DNA from: Actinomycetes bacterium
GTDB lineage: Bacteria; Actinomycetota; Acidimicrobiia; Acidimicrobiales; JAKAVM01
Assembly: GCA_021827485.1 (NCBI GenBank)
Contig: JAKAVM010000049.1
Coordinates: 1-34,426 of the forward strand
DNA: 34,426 nt
Reading direction: 5' to 3'
The notes beneath the pieces were generated by a model. The model saw only the letters and a list, made by a program, of their open reading frames with translations. It was not told the DNA's origin and did not search any database. The position numbers and the translations under genes were made by a program. The stretch's first letter is position 1. Each line of letters opens with the position of its first letter. This document shows positions 10,942 through 17,698 of the stretch, piece after piece.

Positions 10942-12129
10942 ATGGCGAAGCAAAAGTTTGAGAGGAATAAGCCACACCTCAACGTTGGTACCATGGGACA
11001 CATTGACCATGGTAAGACGACACTTACAGCGGCTATTACCAAGTCGTTGGCGGACAAGAACCCCAATGTACACTTCACGCCTTTCGAAGATATTGACAAG
11101 GCCCCCGAAGAGCGCCAGCGTGGTATTACGATCTCCATAGCACACGTGGAGTATGAGACTGATAACCGTCACTATGCGCACGTTGATATGCCGGGTCACG
11201 CTGACTACATCAAGAACATGATCACCGGAGCCGCTCAAGTTGATGGTGCAATTCTGGTAGTTGCTGCAACTGACGGTCCAATGGCGCAAACGCGTGAGCA
11301 CGTTCTCTTAGCTCGCCAGGTAGGTGTTCCAAGCATCGTCGTTGCGCTAAATAAGTGCGATGCAGTTGATGATCCTGAGCTTCTTGATCTGGTCGAGTTG
11401 GAAGTAAGAGAGCTTCTGAACTTCTATGAGTTTCCAGGCGATGACACGCCAGTCGTGAGGATTTCTGCGTTGAAAGCTCTCGAAGGAGACGAAGCAGCGA
11501 AGGGCTGGATTTATGAGCTAATGGATGCAATCGATAGCTACATTCCCGAGCCAAAGAGAGATATCGACAAGCCATTCCTGATGCCGATTGAAGATGTATT
11601 TTCTATCACGGGACGAGGCACAGTTGTTACTGGTAAAGTTGAGCAGGGCAAAGTAAACACTGGTGATGAAGTTGAAATAGTTGGCTTGCGCACGACCCAG
11701 AAGACAGTTTGCACGGGGGTTGAAATGTTTAGAAAGATTCTCGATGAAGGCCAAGCCGGTGACAACATCGGAGCGCTCCTTCGAGGAACCAAGAAGGAAG
11801 ATGTTGAGCGCGGTCAAGTACTTTGCAAGCCTGGTTCGATTACACCTCACACTAATTTTGAAGCAAATGTCTATATCTTGACTAAGGAAGAAGGAGGTCG
11901 ACACAAGCCTTTCTTCCCCAACTATCGTCCTCAGTTCTATTTTAGAACTACTGACGTAACAGGAACGATTACCTTGCCAGAAGGTACCGAGATGATTATG
12001 CCTGGTGATAACACTGAGATGACTGTAGAGCTAGGTAAGCCAATTGCAATGGATGAAGGTCTGCGATTTGCTATCCGTGAAGGTGGTCGTACAGTGGGTG
12101 CCGGTCGAGTCACCAAGATCATCAAGTAA
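10942..12129 (+). CDS. tuf: Elongation factor Tu
   Basis: EF-Tu delivers aminoacyl-tRNA to the ribosomal A site as a GTP complex. The 395-aa length is typical. Motifs are GHIDHGKT (19-26), [17 protein letters not shown] and ALNKCD. Domain 2 carries [15 protein letters not shown], and the C-terminus ends GRVTKIIK. The G3 motif reads DMPGH rather than the commoner DCPGH, which is within family variation. The RBS is CGGAG upstream of ATG. It is the only tuf in this window. Confidence 0.98.
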
Positions 12130-12184: not shown

Positions 12185-12514
12185 ATGGCAGACAGCAACA
12201 GGCAAAAAATACGGATTCGTCTGAAAGCATACGATCACGAGATCATAGATCAGTCGACCCGCAAGATTGTCGAGACTGTTTTGCGTACGCAGGCCAAGGT
12301 GCACGGGCCGATTCCTCTTCCCACCGAAAAGCATCGTTACACGGTTATCAGGTCGCCGCACAAGTATAAAGACTCTCGGGAGCACTTTGAGATGCGGGTT
12401 CACAAGCGTCTTATCGACATAGTTGACCATACTCCTAAGACAGTGGACTCGCTTCAACGTCTTGACCTGCCAGCTGGCGTTGATATCGAGATTAAGCTCA
12501 AGGTAAACGGATAG
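12185..12514 (+). CDS. rpsJ: 30S ribosomal protein S10 (uS10)
   Basis: S10 is a 30S head protein that also serves as the NusE antitermination factor. The product is 109 aa, a little longer than the usual 100-105 because of a short N-terminal leader. The core has [31 protein letters not shown] and [15 protein letters not shown] start at 12185, with AGGAAGAG about 20 bases upstream. Unusually, it is separated from rplC by 478 bp and so groups spatially with tuf rather than with the other S10-operon genes. Confidence 0.97.
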
Positions 12515-12547
12515 TAAGTCGGGGTAGATTTTTTCGGTCTTTTCGAT

Positions 12548-12576
12548 GTGAAATTTTCGAAGAGGGCCGCTATAAT
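12548..12576 (+). promoter_or_regulatory. Sigma70-type promoter for rplC and downstream genes
   Basis: A perfect TATAAT lies at 12571-12576. GTGAAA (12548-12553) matches TTGACA at four of six positions, with the optimal 17-bp spacing. Transcription would begin near 12583, leaving a leader of about 410 nt before rplC. It is the best promoter match I noticed in the window. Confidence 0.65.
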
Positions 12577-12610
12577 ATCACCTCACAACCTTCAATTTGG
12601 TGGAGTATTT

Positions 12611-12670
12611 TTGCCAAAAGAAGGTAAAATTAGAACTCGTAGTCAGACTAGGGTTTTGTTGCCTTATTGA
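12611..12670 (+). CDS. Possible basic leader peptide (19 aa)
   Basis: A TTG start at 12611 has GGTGGAG at 12599-12605, a five-base spacer away, about 28 nt downstream of the predicted transcription start. It encodes MPKEGKIRTRSQTRVLLPY and stops with TGA at 12668-12670. Six of its 19 residues are Lys or Arg. The good ribosome-binding site and its position in a long leader are the only support. I know no homologue. It is too short for the ORF track and could be chance. Confidence 0.3.
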   Translation: MPKEGKIRTRSQTRVLLPY

Positions 12671-12835
12671 TAGGTGATCAAAGACGAGGCCCAATAATCT
12701 GGCTAACAGGATGTCTAGCATTGATGCAAGCCATCGAGATGTCCTTCATCGTCCGACAGGCCGATACGAATTTGCTGATTTGCAAGTTTGTTTTGAGGTG
12801 TTTTGGTCGGAGACATGAAGGCGCAACCTCGAAAG

Positions 12836-12865
12836 CGCTCCGCGCCGGGTTATCCGGGCGGAGCG
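12836..12865 (+). promoter_or_regulatory. GC-rich hairpin in the rplC leader
   Basis: CGCTCCGC (12836-12843) pairs with GCGGAGCG (12858-12865). Inside it, CCGG (12845-12848) pairs with CCGG (12854-12857) around the loop GTTAT. The result is a 12-pair stem with a single bulged G. No T-run follows. It is the most stable-looking structure in the leader, about 127 nt upstream of the rplC start. Confidence 0.5.
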
Positions 12866-12921
12866 TCTGCATGACTGAGCATCGATATTTCAGGCATCAA
12901 CAGAGTTGGGAGTTGTAGAAG

Positions 12922-12955
12922 TTGGATTGGTTCGGGCAAGTATGTCGGAATCCAA
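12922..12955 (+). promoter_or_regulatory. Inverted repeat just upstream of rplC
   Basis: TTGGATT (12922-12928) and AATCCAA (12949-12955) are perfect complements around a 20-nt loop. They end 37 bases before the rplC start. This could be part of a folded leader, but a 7-bp dyad can also arise by chance. Confidence 0.3.
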
Positions 12956-12992
12956 TCGTTAGTTAGAGATAAACGAGACTGAGGTTAGACCC

Positions 12993-13628
12993 GTGGCCGA
13001 GAAGGCAATTATCGGAGAAAAAATAGGAATGACGCAGATATGGGATGACCAAAATAGGGTCACCCCAGTAACAGTGCTTCGGGTGTCGCCGGTTCGGGTT
13101 GTATCGGTGAAAACCAATTCCACTGATGGCTATAGCGCCTTGCAGGTAACCTATGGAATTCGCAATGCTTCAAAGCTGACCAAGCCTGAGGCGGGTCACT
13201 TTGAGCGGGCTCAAGTTGAGCCAGGCAAGAAGTTGATGGAGCTACGGGTAGATGATATTTCGAACTATCAGGTAGGCCAAGAGATAGATGCGGGAATTTT
13301 TGAGAATGGTCAGAAAGTTGACGTTACTTCGATCTCGAAAGGCAAGGGTTTTGCTGGCGGGATGAAGCGACATAACTTCAAAGGGCAAGGCGCATCACAC
13401 GGTAATCACAAGAAACATCGGTCACCTGGTTCCATCGGAGCCTGTGCAACGCCCGCACGAGTATTCAAAGGCACGCGCATGGCTGGTCAACTTGGGTCAG
13501 CAAAGGTAACAACTTTAGGTCTCTCTGTAGTTCTATCGGATCCGGATCGCCAAATCGTTTTAGTAAAGGGTGCTGTGCCAGGTCCGAAGGGTGGCGTGGT
13601 TATGATTCGAAACGCGGTGAAGGCATAA
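12993..13628 (+). CDS. rplC: 50S ribosomal protein L3 (uL3)
   Basis: L3 is an early assembly protein of the 50S subunit; its loop reaches towards the peptidyl-transferase centre. The product is 211 aa, the normal size. It begins MAEKAIIGEKIGMTQIWDD and carries KGKGFAGGMKRHNFKGQ and the GSIGACATPARVFKGTRMAG loop. The start is GTG at 12993 with GAGG upstream. Its TAA shares one base with the ATG of rplD, suggesting coupled translation. Confidence 0.98.
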   Translation: MAEKAIIGEKIGMTQIWDDQNRVTPVTVLRVSPVRVVSVKTNSTDGYSALQVTYGIRNASKLTKPEAGHFERAQVEPGKKLMELRVDDISNYQVGQEIDAGIFENGQKVDVTSISKGKGFAGGMKRHNFKGQGASHGNHKKHRSPGSIGACATPARVFKGTRMAGQLGSAKVTTLGLSVVLSDPDRQIVLVKGAVPGPKGGVVMIRNAVKA

Positions 13629-14482
13629 TGGCAGTGGTCCAGGAGGCGTTCGAAAGCCAAACAGCTATGGAGATTGAACTGCGCAAGACGCGCAATGCTC
13701 AACGTATCTCTCACCAGGTCGCATTACGATCGATGAAAGGCCCTAAGCGAGGTAGTGTTGAACTAGATCCGGAGCTTTTTGGGGTGACCCCTAACATGGC
13801 TGTTCTACACCAAGTAGTTCAGGCACAAATGGCGGGGGCAAGATCTGGAACTCAATCTACTCTTACTCGGGCACAAGTCCGGGGAGGTGGCCGAAAGCCA
13901 TGGCGCCAGAAAGGTACCGGACGTGCCCGCCAAGGATCGATTCGTTCGCCTCAGTGGGTGGGTGGCGGAGTTGCACTGGGACCTAAGCCTAGAGACTATA
14001 GTCAAGATACCCCTAAGAAGATGGTTCGACTTGCTCTTGCAAGCGCACTTTCAGATCGCGCTAATTCAAAGCGGGTTGTAGTAATAACTGGCTGGGAATT
14101 TGAAAAGCCAAGTACTAAGGCAGCCTTGGCATTTCTCAAAGCTTTTAAACTTCGGGGGAACGTACTTATCGTTCTCGGGGGTGGGGACGGAGACAGTGAA
14201 GCTGATTTTGTTGCTTATAAGTCTTTTGCAAATCTCCCTAACGTCGGGTTAGTTCCAGCCGGGGAGTTGACGGCATGGGACGTGCTAAGAAGTGACTGGT
14301 TAGTTTTTACTACTGAGTCGCTTCCAGGTAATACAGCGACTCAGCTAAGTACTCCGCAAGTAACTGCTGAGCCAGCAGAGCTTGTTGAGCTGGCAGACGC
14401 TGATGCTCCGCAAGTAACTGATGAGCCAGCAGACACGGATGCAACTCCCATAACAGACGCCGAAGCTAGCGAGGAGAACTAA
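13628..14482 (+). CDS. rplD: 50S ribosomal protein L4 (uL4) with N- and C-terminal extensions
   Basis: L4 reaches into the peptide exit tunnel and in E. coli represses its own operon. The product is 284 aa, well above the usual 205-220. The conserved core starts near VELDPELFGV (residue 44) and includes the tunnel loop GGGRKPWRQKGTGRARQGS. About 40 basic residues precede the core. After residue 230 comes a Thr/Pro/Asp/Glu-rich tail of about 54 aa with an 18-residue repeat (PQVTAEPAE then PQVTDEPAD). The DNA shows a matching 54-bp tandem duplication. rplW follows after three bases. Confidence 0.97.
   Translation: MAVVQEAFESQTAMEIELRKTRNAQRISHQVALRSMKGPKRGSVELDPELFGVTPNMAVLHQVVQAQMAGARSGTQSTLTRAQVRGGGRKPWRQKGTGRARQGSIRSPQWVGGGVALGPKPRDYSQDTPKKMVRLALASALSDRANSKRVVVITGWEFEKPSTKAALAFLKAFKLRGNVLIVLGGGDGDSEADFVAYKSFANLPNVGLVPAGELTAWDVLRSDWLVFTTESLPGNTATQLSTPQVTAEPAELVELADADAPQVTDEPADTDATPITDAEASEEN
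14352..14432 (+). repeat. 54-bp-period direct repeat in the rplD tail
   Basis: CTCCGCAAGTAACTG occurs at 14352 and again at 14406. The match continues for about 27 bases with a single difference. The period is a multiple of three, so the reading frame is kept and an 18-aa acidic unit is partly duplicated. Confidence 0.7.
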
Positions 14483-14485
14483 TCT

Positions 14486-14776
14486 ATGGATGTACGACAG
14501 ATAATTTACCGTCCGGTCGTTTCGGAGAAATCCTATTCACGTACCGATCAAGGGGTTTACACTTTCATCGTGCACCCTGAGGCCTCCAAGATCCAAATCC
14601 GTCAAGCAATCGAAGAAATCTTCCACGTAAAGGTCGCTAAGGTCAATACGCTTAATCGAATAGGCAAGAAGCGCAATAATCGTCGTAACAATACAGTTGG
14701 ATCGAAACCTGATACCAAGCGAGCCATGGTGACCTTGGTTGGGGACGATCGCATAGAACTCTTCCAAGGATCATGA
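14486..14776 (+). CDS. rplW: 50S ribosomal protein L23 (uL23)
   Basis: L23 sits at the exit of the peptide tunnel and is the docking site for trigger factor and SRP. The 96-aa length is normal. It starts [18 protein letters not shown] and has [18 protein letters not shown] and the [13 protein letters not shown] loop. Unlike its neighbours uL4, uL22 and uL29, it has no added tail. ATG at 14486, three bases after rplD. Confidence 0.97.
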
Positions 14777-14786
14777 GGATTATCTA

Positions 14787-15623
14787 GTGGCACTAAGAAA
14801 AAGAAACCCAACTAGCGCCGGTCGACGTTTTCAAACATCGTCAGACTTTTCGGAGTTAACAACCGACAGACCAGAAAAATCGCTTTTGGTTTCCAAGCCA
14901 CGAACCGGTGGCCGCAACAGCTATGGTCGTAAGACCGCCAGGCATCGTGGTGGAGGTCATAAACAGCGCTATCGCCTTGTAGATTTCAAGCGAGACAAAG
15001 ACGGGATTCCGGCGAAAGTTGCTAGCATCGAATATGACCCTAATCGCAATGCCCGGATCGCACTTCTCAACTATTTCGATGGAGAGAAGCGCTATATTCT
15101 TGCACCTGAAGGCCTTGAAGTAGGCGACAAACTCCAATCGGGAAGAGGATCTGAAATCCGCGTCGGCAATTGCCTTCCATTGCGATATATGCCAGTTGGA
15201 TCGGTTATCCATAACGTCGAGCTCAAACCTGGTGCGGGTGGCAAACTAGGCCGCGGAGCAGGATCCTCAATCCAGTTGGTTGCCAAAGAAGGAGCATACG
15301 CAACTCTGCGGTTACCCTCTACCGAAATGCGCAAAGTCCCTATTGACTGCAAAGGAACTCTTGGCGAGGTTGGTAACAAAGAAGCCGAGCTGATCAAGAT
15401 TGGTAAAGCAGGTCGAAATCGTTGGAAGGGTGTTCGCCCGCAGACAAGAGGTGTTGCAATGAACCCGGTTGACCACCCCTTAGGTGGCGGTGAAGGCAAG
15501 TCCTCCGGTGGACGTCATCCAGTGTCGCCGTGGGGCAAACCCGAGGGCCGCACCAGAGATCGTAACAAGAAGTCTAACGATATGATAGTTCGTCGACGCA
15601 GGACTAGAGGTTCACGTCGATGA
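14787..15623 (+). CDS. rplB: 50S ribosomal protein L2 (uL2)
   Basis: L2 is needed for subunit joining and peptidyl-transferase centre assembly. At 278 aa it is full length. It contains [20 protein letters not shown] in the N-terminal domain and the conserved C-terminal loop [18 protein letters not shown]. The C-terminus is the usual basic [14 protein letters not shown] start at 14787, with TGAGGAT upstream overlapping the rplW end. The 85-bp gap to rpsS holds a small stem. Confidence 0.98.
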
Positions 15624-15989: not shown

Positions 15990-16739
15990 ATGCCAAGACT
16001 TGCTGAGAAGACTAACGAACGACCTGGGACTCGTGCTGTTCTGCGAAATAGCCACATGTCACCTTACAAAGCTCGTGAGGTTCTTGGTCTCATTCGTAAT
16101 TTACCCGTTGGTGAAGCGCTAGAAGTACTACGGTTGTGTGGTCGTGATGCAGCAATTCCGATTGCCAAGCTCCTGGCTTCTGCGGTTGCCAACGCTAGCT
16201 ACAACGACCAACTCGATCCCGAAGAACTGTACGTAGCTAGTGCTTTTTGCGATGAGGCAACTACCATGAAGCGATGGAGACCACGAGCTAGGGGTCGTGC
16301 TACGAGGATTAGAAAGCGCGCAAGTCACGTGACGATTGTTGTTGCTCGCCTGCCTGAGGAGCAAATTTCCAGAATCGTTACTAAGCGCGAAACTATTGCA
16401 GCCCAGCGCAGATCGCGCAGAGTGAGTGCCTCAAGAAAGTCTTCAGAAAAGCAAGATTCACTAGCGGATGCCACTTTGTCTGAAGATGTGAACGACGATA
16501 ACCACCCAAGTGATCTAGCAGGTGGTGACGGGGCAAGTAACGAAGCCCTAGTTAGTGGCGACGAAGAGATTGATGAGGCCCTAGCCGGTGGCGACGAAGA
16601 AATTAGCGAGGTTAATGCCAGCGCTGACGAAGAAGGCAATGAGCAGACAAGTGCTACGTCAGAAACTAAAGACGAGGAAACTAGTCAGGAAGAAAGTAGC
16701 GAGGGTCAGACCAATGACGAAGAAGGAGACGAGTCCTAA
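15990..16739 (+). CDS. rplV: 50S ribosomal protein L22 (uL22) with a long acidic C-terminal tail
   Basis: L22 lines the exit tunnel, and its globular domain lies at the tunnel mouth. The product is 249 aa; the family is usually 110-130. Residues 1-125 are a normal core ([17 protein letters not shown], then [21 protein letters not shown]). From about residue 150 a strongly acidic Ser/Glu/Asp tail follows, with three 11-aa repeats ([33 protein letters not shown]). The tail has no cysteines or hydrophobic stretches, so it is probably disordered. The stop TAA overlaps the rpsC ATG by one base. Confidence 0.96.
16542..16640 (+). repeat. Three 33-bp imperfect tandem repeats in the rplV tail
   Basis: Units at 16542-16574, 16575-16607 and 16608-16640 each encode an 11-residue acidic unit with GDEE or ADEE. 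The first two are close in DNA sequence (GGCGACGAAGA shared), while the third has diverged. The period keeps the frame. Confidence 0.65.
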
Positions 16740-17698
16740 TGGGGCAGAAAGTTAATCCATACGGGTTTCGTCTAGGGATTACAACCGAATGGAAGTCTCG
16801 GTGGTTCGATGATCGCGACTATCAGTCTTCGGTCATTCAAGACTGGAAGATTAGAGACTTTCTAATGACGCAGCTCGAGAGGGCTGCAGTTAGCAGAATT
16901 GAAGTTGAGAGGACTAGGGACCGTCTTAGGGTTGATCTTCACACATCTCGTCCCGGAATAGTTATTGGCAGGCGAGGGGCTGAAGCAGACCGCCTTCGAC
17001 AAGAGCTTACTAAGATAACTGGCAATCCCAAGATTCAGCTAAACATTCAAGAGATAAAGCAGCCAGAGCTGGATGCTGCATTGATTGCACAAGGAATTGC
17101 CGATCAGCTAGCGGGGCGTGTGAGTTTTAGAAGGGCCATGAAGCGTGCATTGCAAACAGTTCAGAAGGCCGGTGGTTTAGGGATTAAAGTTCAGTGCTCT
17201 GGCCGACTTGGTGGAGCCGAAATGTCTCGGAGAGAGTCCTATCGCGAGGGAAGAGTTCCGTTGCACACTCTTAGAGCTGATATTGATTATGGTCAGCGCG
17301 AGGCCCGTACAACTTATGGTCGGATTGGCGTCAAGGTGTGGATTTACAAAGGCGACATCCTCCCATACAAAGTACAGCCTGAGGAAAAGACCACACGCGA
17401 CCCAGGAATGGCGCAAGGAGACGCATCTGGGCTTGGCCGTCCTCGCAAGATTATTGTCGCTGGAGGTGGACGACGCAGGCCGGAGATGGGTGATCCCGGA
17501 ACAGAAGGGGATTTCTCACTAATCCCAGGTGGTGAAGAGGACGTAGATCCAGAACTCGAGGAGTCAGTACCAGCGGTGATTTCTGCGCCTGAAGTAGATA
17601 CCGAGCTTGAACGGCTTCTCTCTGAAGAAGAGGATATTGAGAGGCGTACTCGGGGCTCACATCATGAAACCCCACACTTTCGCAAGGAGATCGACTAA
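16739..17698 (+). CDS. rpsC: 30S ribosomal protein S3 (uS3) with acidic C-terminal extension
   Basis: S3 binds at the mRNA entry channel and has helicase-linked residues. It begins [20 protein letters not shown]. The KH-domain loop GIVIGRRG is at residues 73-80, and the core ends with [17 protein letters not shown] near 209. About 110 further residues follow: a Gly/Arg-rich segment, then the acidic part [14 protein letters not shown] and [14 protein letters not shown]. At 319 aa it exceeds the usual 210-280. ATG at 16739 overlaps the rplV stop; rplP begins two bases after its own stop. Confidence 0.97.

Follow-up and report, generated by a model that had tools for sequence, protein, structure and literature searches.

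The gap of 478 nt between rpsJ and rplC in a member of the Acidimicrobiales (Actinomycetota) carries a conserved RNA, which we interpret, with a probability of about 0.72, as the cis-acting ribosomal-protein leader of the rplC-rplD-rplW-rplB operon, belonging to a previously undescribed family and most likely responding to L4. The RNA would probably act as a sensor that restrains ribosomal-protein production when the supply is sufficient. In the proposed mechanism, transcription would start at a promoter behind rpsJ, and the 5′ untranslated region would fold into a hairpin P1, a conserved linker, a second hairpin P2 and a single-stranded tail. A ribosomal protein of the operon, most likely L4, would bind this RNA when present in excess over rRNA, and binding would shut down rplC-rplD-rplW-rplB and the genes that follow. 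The analysed stretch of DNA, referred to as the window, comprises 34,426 nt. Its closest named records are Acidimicrobiales or Actinomycetes metagenome-assembled genomes (MAGs) whose rplC is 73-83% identical, and further S10/spc genes follow rplB on the + strand. The features of the locus are compiled in Table 1.

Table 1 Genes and predicted RNA features around the rpsJ-rplC gap (window positions)
Feature	Position	Strand	Remarks
tuf	10942-12129	+	Upstream neighbour of rpsJ
rpsJ (S10)	12185-12514	+	TIGR01049; starts 55 nt after tuf, apart from rplC
Predicted promoter	12548-12576	+	GTGAAA (12548-12553; 4/6 match to -35), 17-nt spacer, TATAAT (12571-12576); predicted transcription start near 12583
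5′ extension of leader	12583-12729	+	Window's family only; mostly variable
Hairpin P1	12734-12832	+	Minimum-free-energy (MFE) fold; covariation in 93 relatives
P1 basal stem	12734-12738 with 12828-12832	+	UCGAG/CUCGA; window's family only
P1 main stem	12740-12749 with 12815-12825	+	UGUCCUUCAU / AUGAAGGcGCA; 6/6 pairs with double-sided changes
P1 internal loop	12750-12751 / 12812-12814	+	CG/GAC; conserved
P1 inner stem	12752-12758 with its partner	+	Bears lineage-specific extension
Hairpin P2	12835-12866	+	GCGCUCCGC-g-CCGG-guuau-CCGG-GCGGAGCGU; 12 pairs; possible terminator
Single-stranded tail	12866-12873	+	UYNGCRUG (window: UCUGCAUG); conserved
Probable Shine-Dalgarno of rplC	12981-12984	+	GAGG, 8 nt before GTG
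rplC (L3)	12993-13628	+	TIGR03625, 278 bits; first gene of proposed regulated operon
rplD (L4)	13628-14482	+	TIGR03953, 220.6 bits; proposed autoregulator
rplW (L23) and rplB (L2)	14486-15623	+	Next genes of operon

A covarying two-hairpin RNA upstream of rplC

Whole genomes and named contigs of relatives supplied 99 distinct rplC loci, and a covariance model (R1) was built from 31 of them with the window left out. R1 recovered the element in 94 of the 99 loci, always in the sense orientation and just upstream of rplC, and it also recovered the window at 40.7 bits. With a refined model, a single copy was found in the window's genome, at 12730-12878 (68.5 bits, E 2.7e-16). The functional core is narrower than the leader of the original prediction; it consists of P1 with its conserved internal loop, followed by P2 and the UYNGCRUG tail, and folds with a z score of -5.8 when taken alone. 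The predicted 12-pair hairpin was found again as P2, while P1, the main structure, and the conserved tail had escaped the original prediction. Three of the five loci missed by R1 (L084, L082 and L110) hold a diverged but still recognisable element in unfiltered scoring. In one of these, from Ferrimicrobium (L110, 4892-4975), a P1-like hairpin is retained upstream of rplC and the P2 sequence is lost, a state that hints at P1 as the recognition element.

Across 93 aligned sequences, double-sided changes were observed in 19 of the 24 pairs, a count reached in none of 500 shuffles. Cells with double-sided changes numbered 309, compared with 96 in the shuffles, and 92.7% of cells paired, compared with 31-45% when the partners were slid. 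Since this alignment had been fitted to the structure, the unfitted MAFFT seed alignment was counted as well; here 92.0% of cells paired, and double changes numbered 106, compared with 34. Half of the P2 pairs are invariant in the seed alignment. Furthermore, the pairs with the highest mutual information, computed without reference to any structure, coincided with P1 pairs, while mutual information lent no support to extra helices or to a pseudoknot pairing the tail. The covariation in these alignments demonstrates the structure of both P1 and P2, with very strong support for P1. Lack of stem conservation among close relatives had been named as grounds for rejecting the leader; the stems proved to be conserved.

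The two hairpins differ in what has been kept. In P1 the sequence varies and the shape is maintained, one G-C pair is invariant and the internal loop keeps its RA bulge, whereas the P2 stem sequence is nearly invariant across the order. The spacing between P1 and P2 is fixed and short. In the tail, the conserved positions are U (88 of 93 sequences), G (85), C (76), U (86) and G (88). The consensus before rplC in nearly all loci begins with GAYGUCC - stem - GCC..GGRAC - stem and continues with GGCACAACC .. CGCUCCGC-(C)GGG..CCCG-GCGGAGCG - UYNGCRUG.

Predicted promoter and 5′ part of the proposed leader

The perfect TATAAT with its 4/6 -35 element, part of the original prediction, was confirmed. 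A promoter scan by itself stood at chance level (three sites, 2.2 expected). The promoter block (GATGTGAAATT ... TATAAT/TATACT) is kept in the genus-mate and in a further genus of the family, that is, in two to three genera. Moreover, 41 of 77 relatives have a -10-like hexamer at 20-60 nt upstream of P1, compared with 5 of 77 in an equal-length stretch farther upstream, a rough control that includes coding sequence in some loci. From the conservation of the promoter we infer that transcription of the rplC leader starts behind rpsJ. In the window's family this promoter is more distant from P1 than in the other relatives, the -10 hexamer being 165 nt upstream of P1 in both the window and the genus-mate, and the leader has a 5′ extension, of which the last ~18 nt (from 12712) are conserved within the genus. 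The predicted leader length of about 410 nt held up, and a leader of this length folds far better than its shuffled versions (z = -5.4, 0 of 100 shuffles).

Identity of the gap to that of the genus-mate is 49% overall, with conserved islands at the promoter block (60-68%), at 12712-12761 (68-84%) and at 12812-12886 (68-88%). Two further elements of the original prediction lie outside these islands, each at a background identity of 24-28%. The first, a 19-aa peptide, does correspond to an ORF at 12611-12670 with a TTG start and a GGTGGAG ribosome-binding site, but its sequence is unconserved, and ORFs of 15 aa or more with a Shine-Dalgarno-like site turn up in about 10% of shuffled segments; the peptide was discarded. 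The second, a dyad near rplC, is indeed present at 12922-12956 but is missing from the genus-mate, and was likewise discarded as a part of the leader. Separately, a Shine-Dalgarno-like GGTGGA or GGAGG was observed ahead of a start codon plus proline codon (TTG CCA, ATG CCG, GTG CCG) in the window (12599-12620) and in the corresponding gaps of two other loci (L003 and L005). Its position behind the promoter is comparable across the three genera, although the encoded peptides bear no relation to one another; an upstream ORF of small size is still just conceivable.

Distribution and the separation of rpsJ from rplC

The RNA was found in 121 of 148 genomes in a sample of the order and in 45 of 100 in a sample of the class, the latter including other orders and being patchy by family. 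A record labelled Ferrithrix thermotolerans (L100), a cultured member, is among the carriers. All hits above 38 bits in order and class whose locus was checked adjoin rplC. Elsewhere in the phylum, hits stayed at 27-37 bits, and none of those checked adjoins rplC. As second copies of the RNA, such 27-37-bit hits were rejected: they are mainly P2-like hairpins, one of them located behind a tRNA-like sequence, and none is near rplC. Judged by these searches, the RNA is restricted to the Acidimicrobiia and kept across most of the Acidimicrobiales.

In the 62 loci of relatives that yielded rpsJ, rplC and a candidate hairpin, the two genes are 161-486 nt apart, except for ten loci in which the distance exceeds 1 kb, and the RNA remains directly before rplC even where rpsJ is 1.1-4.5 kb away. 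The intervening genes are in some cases glutamate-dehydrogenase-like, adenylate-cyclase/AAA or methyltransferase genes. By comparison, in 28 genomes of the class or phylum that lack the RNA, the two genes mostly overlap or are at most 64 nt apart, with L336 (195 nt), L357 (98), L360 (388) and L362 (134) as exceptions. Since the RNA stays with rplC and the genomes lacking it mostly keep the two genes together, the RNA belongs to rplC and accompanies the separation of rpsJ. The claim that a regulatory leader precedes rplC-rplD and not rpsJ is thus strongly supported by covariation, by location and by the correlation with the uncoupling of rpsJ and rplC. In a record labelled Bifidobacterium breve (L089, MAG MH-09jul19-118), rpsJ is followed at a distance of 2.1 kb by an rplC of Acidimicrobiia type (65% identical); the label looks wrong.

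Mode of control, candidate ligand and related leaders

The E. coli S10 leader requires two hairpins, a terminator and another one upstream of it. By analogy, P2 together with UYNGCRUG may constitute a weak, U-poor terminator that would be aided by a protein bound to the upstream P1. We regard such premature termination at P2 as the likelier level of control, while giving it slightly less than even odds. The protein ligand would probably be L4, again by analogy with E. coli, where uL4 binds the S10 leader and, together with NusA, is believed to bring about termination at the attenuator hairpin; it represses translation of the S10 operon as well (PMC10931766). The tail of P2 resembles those of terminators in GC-rich relatives; these are U-poor hairpins, and (T)TCGCGTCC is an example of their tails. 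In one relative (G005), TTCGCGTCC comes after a hairpin downstream of the 5S rRNA, and tails of this type stand behind strong hairpins in G090, G049, G010 and G008. Transcript ends lacking U have also been reported in Streptomyces (PMC8269248). The further idea of a new attenuator class, with a terminator free of a U-run (hairpin plus UYNGCRUG), that arose when rpsJ split off in Acidimicrobiia and control moved to a new leader before rplC, is speculative and rather unlikely. No alternative antiterminator fold was found in the leader.

Other terminators of the group were noted in passing. The rRNA terminators of the order (L304, 4741-4817; 5S 3′ flanks of L306-L335) form long GC hairpins whose tails differ with base composition: GC-rich members show short, U-poor tails (CGCGTCC, GTCGTTTTCGG, TTCGCGTCC), and GC-poor members show U-runs. 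At L184 (3132-3229, - strand), a terminator-like hairpin that directly follows a tRNA-like sequence bears the tail UUUUGCGUGAAAG, almost the same as that of P2. Two other surveys were abandoned: tRNA 3′ flanks were uninformative, and automatic gene calling for 3′-end hairpins in a relative with 72% GC was too crude.

The same leader might instead control translation or mRNA stability, with a protein on P1/P2 hindering ribosome loading or exposing the mRNA, and with P2 serving as a recognition element. This is a serious contender, although we would not bet on it. The conservation of the P2 stem and tail exceeds what a plain terminator needs and looks more like that of a binding site, as does the invariance of half of the P2 pairs in the seed alignment. 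P2 of the window also lacks a U-run, whereas the terminators of its own genome have them (TTTTTTCGT after 5S, and CTTTTTACG). However, the distance between P2 and the start codon ranges from 24 to 205 nt, which excludes a regular overlap with the ribosome-binding site.

With regard to the ligand, another protein of the operon (L3, L23 or L2), or a ligand that is no ribosomal protein of this operon, could take the place of L4, an alternative that is tenable but on balance improbable. The first gene is always rplC, L3 is an early-assembly protein (PMC10931766), and an Alphaproteobacteria rplB leader has been assigned to L2 from the nearest gene (PMC7247131). Nevertheless, the first gene is often not that of the ligand in multi-gene operons (PMC7247131), and in E. 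coli the known controller of the operon is L4 (PMC10931766). Mimicry of 23S rRNA was considered and rejected: the RNA and 23S rRNA share one 9-mer, GCGGAGCGT, which is a single conserved word of which about 0.35 would be expected by chance by our own estimate, and searching rRNA with the structure model gave no convincing hit inside it.

It is very improbable that P2 does no more than terminate the tuf-rpsJ operon, within an otherwise ordinary untranslated region free of regulation. P2 does look like the terminators of GC-rich relatives, and no other terminator-like site exists on the + strand between rpsJ and rplC. However, P1 covaries at its constant distance from P2, the -10-like element upstream of P1 places P2 inside the rplC transcript, and the element keeps to rplC even where rpsJ lies kilobases away. 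Chance structure in spacer DNA, for which only the promoter scan at chance level would speak, is refuted by covariation and clade-wide conservation.

Feedback control is classic for the ribosomal operon of L3, L4, L23 and L2, and its regulation in actinobacteria is little described. The original prediction had suggested a search with ribosomal leader covariance models, and none matched: Rfam 15 gave no hit at gathering score for the window or eight relatives, and what scored below threshold (Streptomyces-metH in the wrong orientation, a Pseudomonas P17 hairpin and unrelated short sRNAs) looks like chance. A literature search found the RNA nowhere described, which is no proof of absence as subscription papers were mostly outside its reach. 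For Actinobacteria, the survey of Eckert and Weinberg (2020) lists new leaders of L17 and L31, and none of S10 or L4 (PMC7247131). Like the E. coli S10 leader, the present RNA is a long structured 5′ UTR for L3, L4, L23 and L2 in which one hairpin precedes a second, possibly terminating one; unlike it, the RNA stands before rplC instead of rpsJ, has no detectable sequence relation to it (no Rfam hit) and has no clear U-run after P2, and its attenuation and ligand are predictions only. The position before rplC, which the original prediction had called a different arrangement, does depart from that in E. coli but is not unprecedented. The nearest published arrangement is the predicted L4 leader of Archaeoglobi (PMC7247131), which also lies directly before rplC-rplD-rplW-rplB with rpsJ outside the unit; that leader is archaeal and borderline according to its authors, whereas the present RNA covaries strongly and has no Rfam match. 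The Firmicutes S10 leader and the Peptostreptococcaceae rpsJ motif (PMC7247131, PMC11109978) are likewise predicted ribosomal-protein leaders of the same operon, but they lie upstream of rpsJ and in other phyla, whereas the present RNA occurs in Acidimicrobiia only. The RNA is thus a new family of the ribosomal-leader kind, unusual in that control is placed before rplC with rpsJ left out. Strongly covarying and easily recognised in more than 100 sampled genomes, it offers a testable sensor, an instance of an operon split and a new regulator occurring together, and a possible example of how GC-rich bacteria terminate transcription at U-poor sites.

Several ribosomal proteins encoded in the window are much above their usual length, namely L4 (13628-14482, 284 aa), L22 (15990-16739, 249 aa), S3 (16739-17698, 319 aa) and L29 (18138-18719, 193 aa). 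The family models span only part of each of them; long C-terminal tails remain uncovered, as do 43 aa at the N-terminus of L4. In addition, L4 shows similarity to the NCBIfam 'sunset domain variant', at a score below the cut-off of that model.
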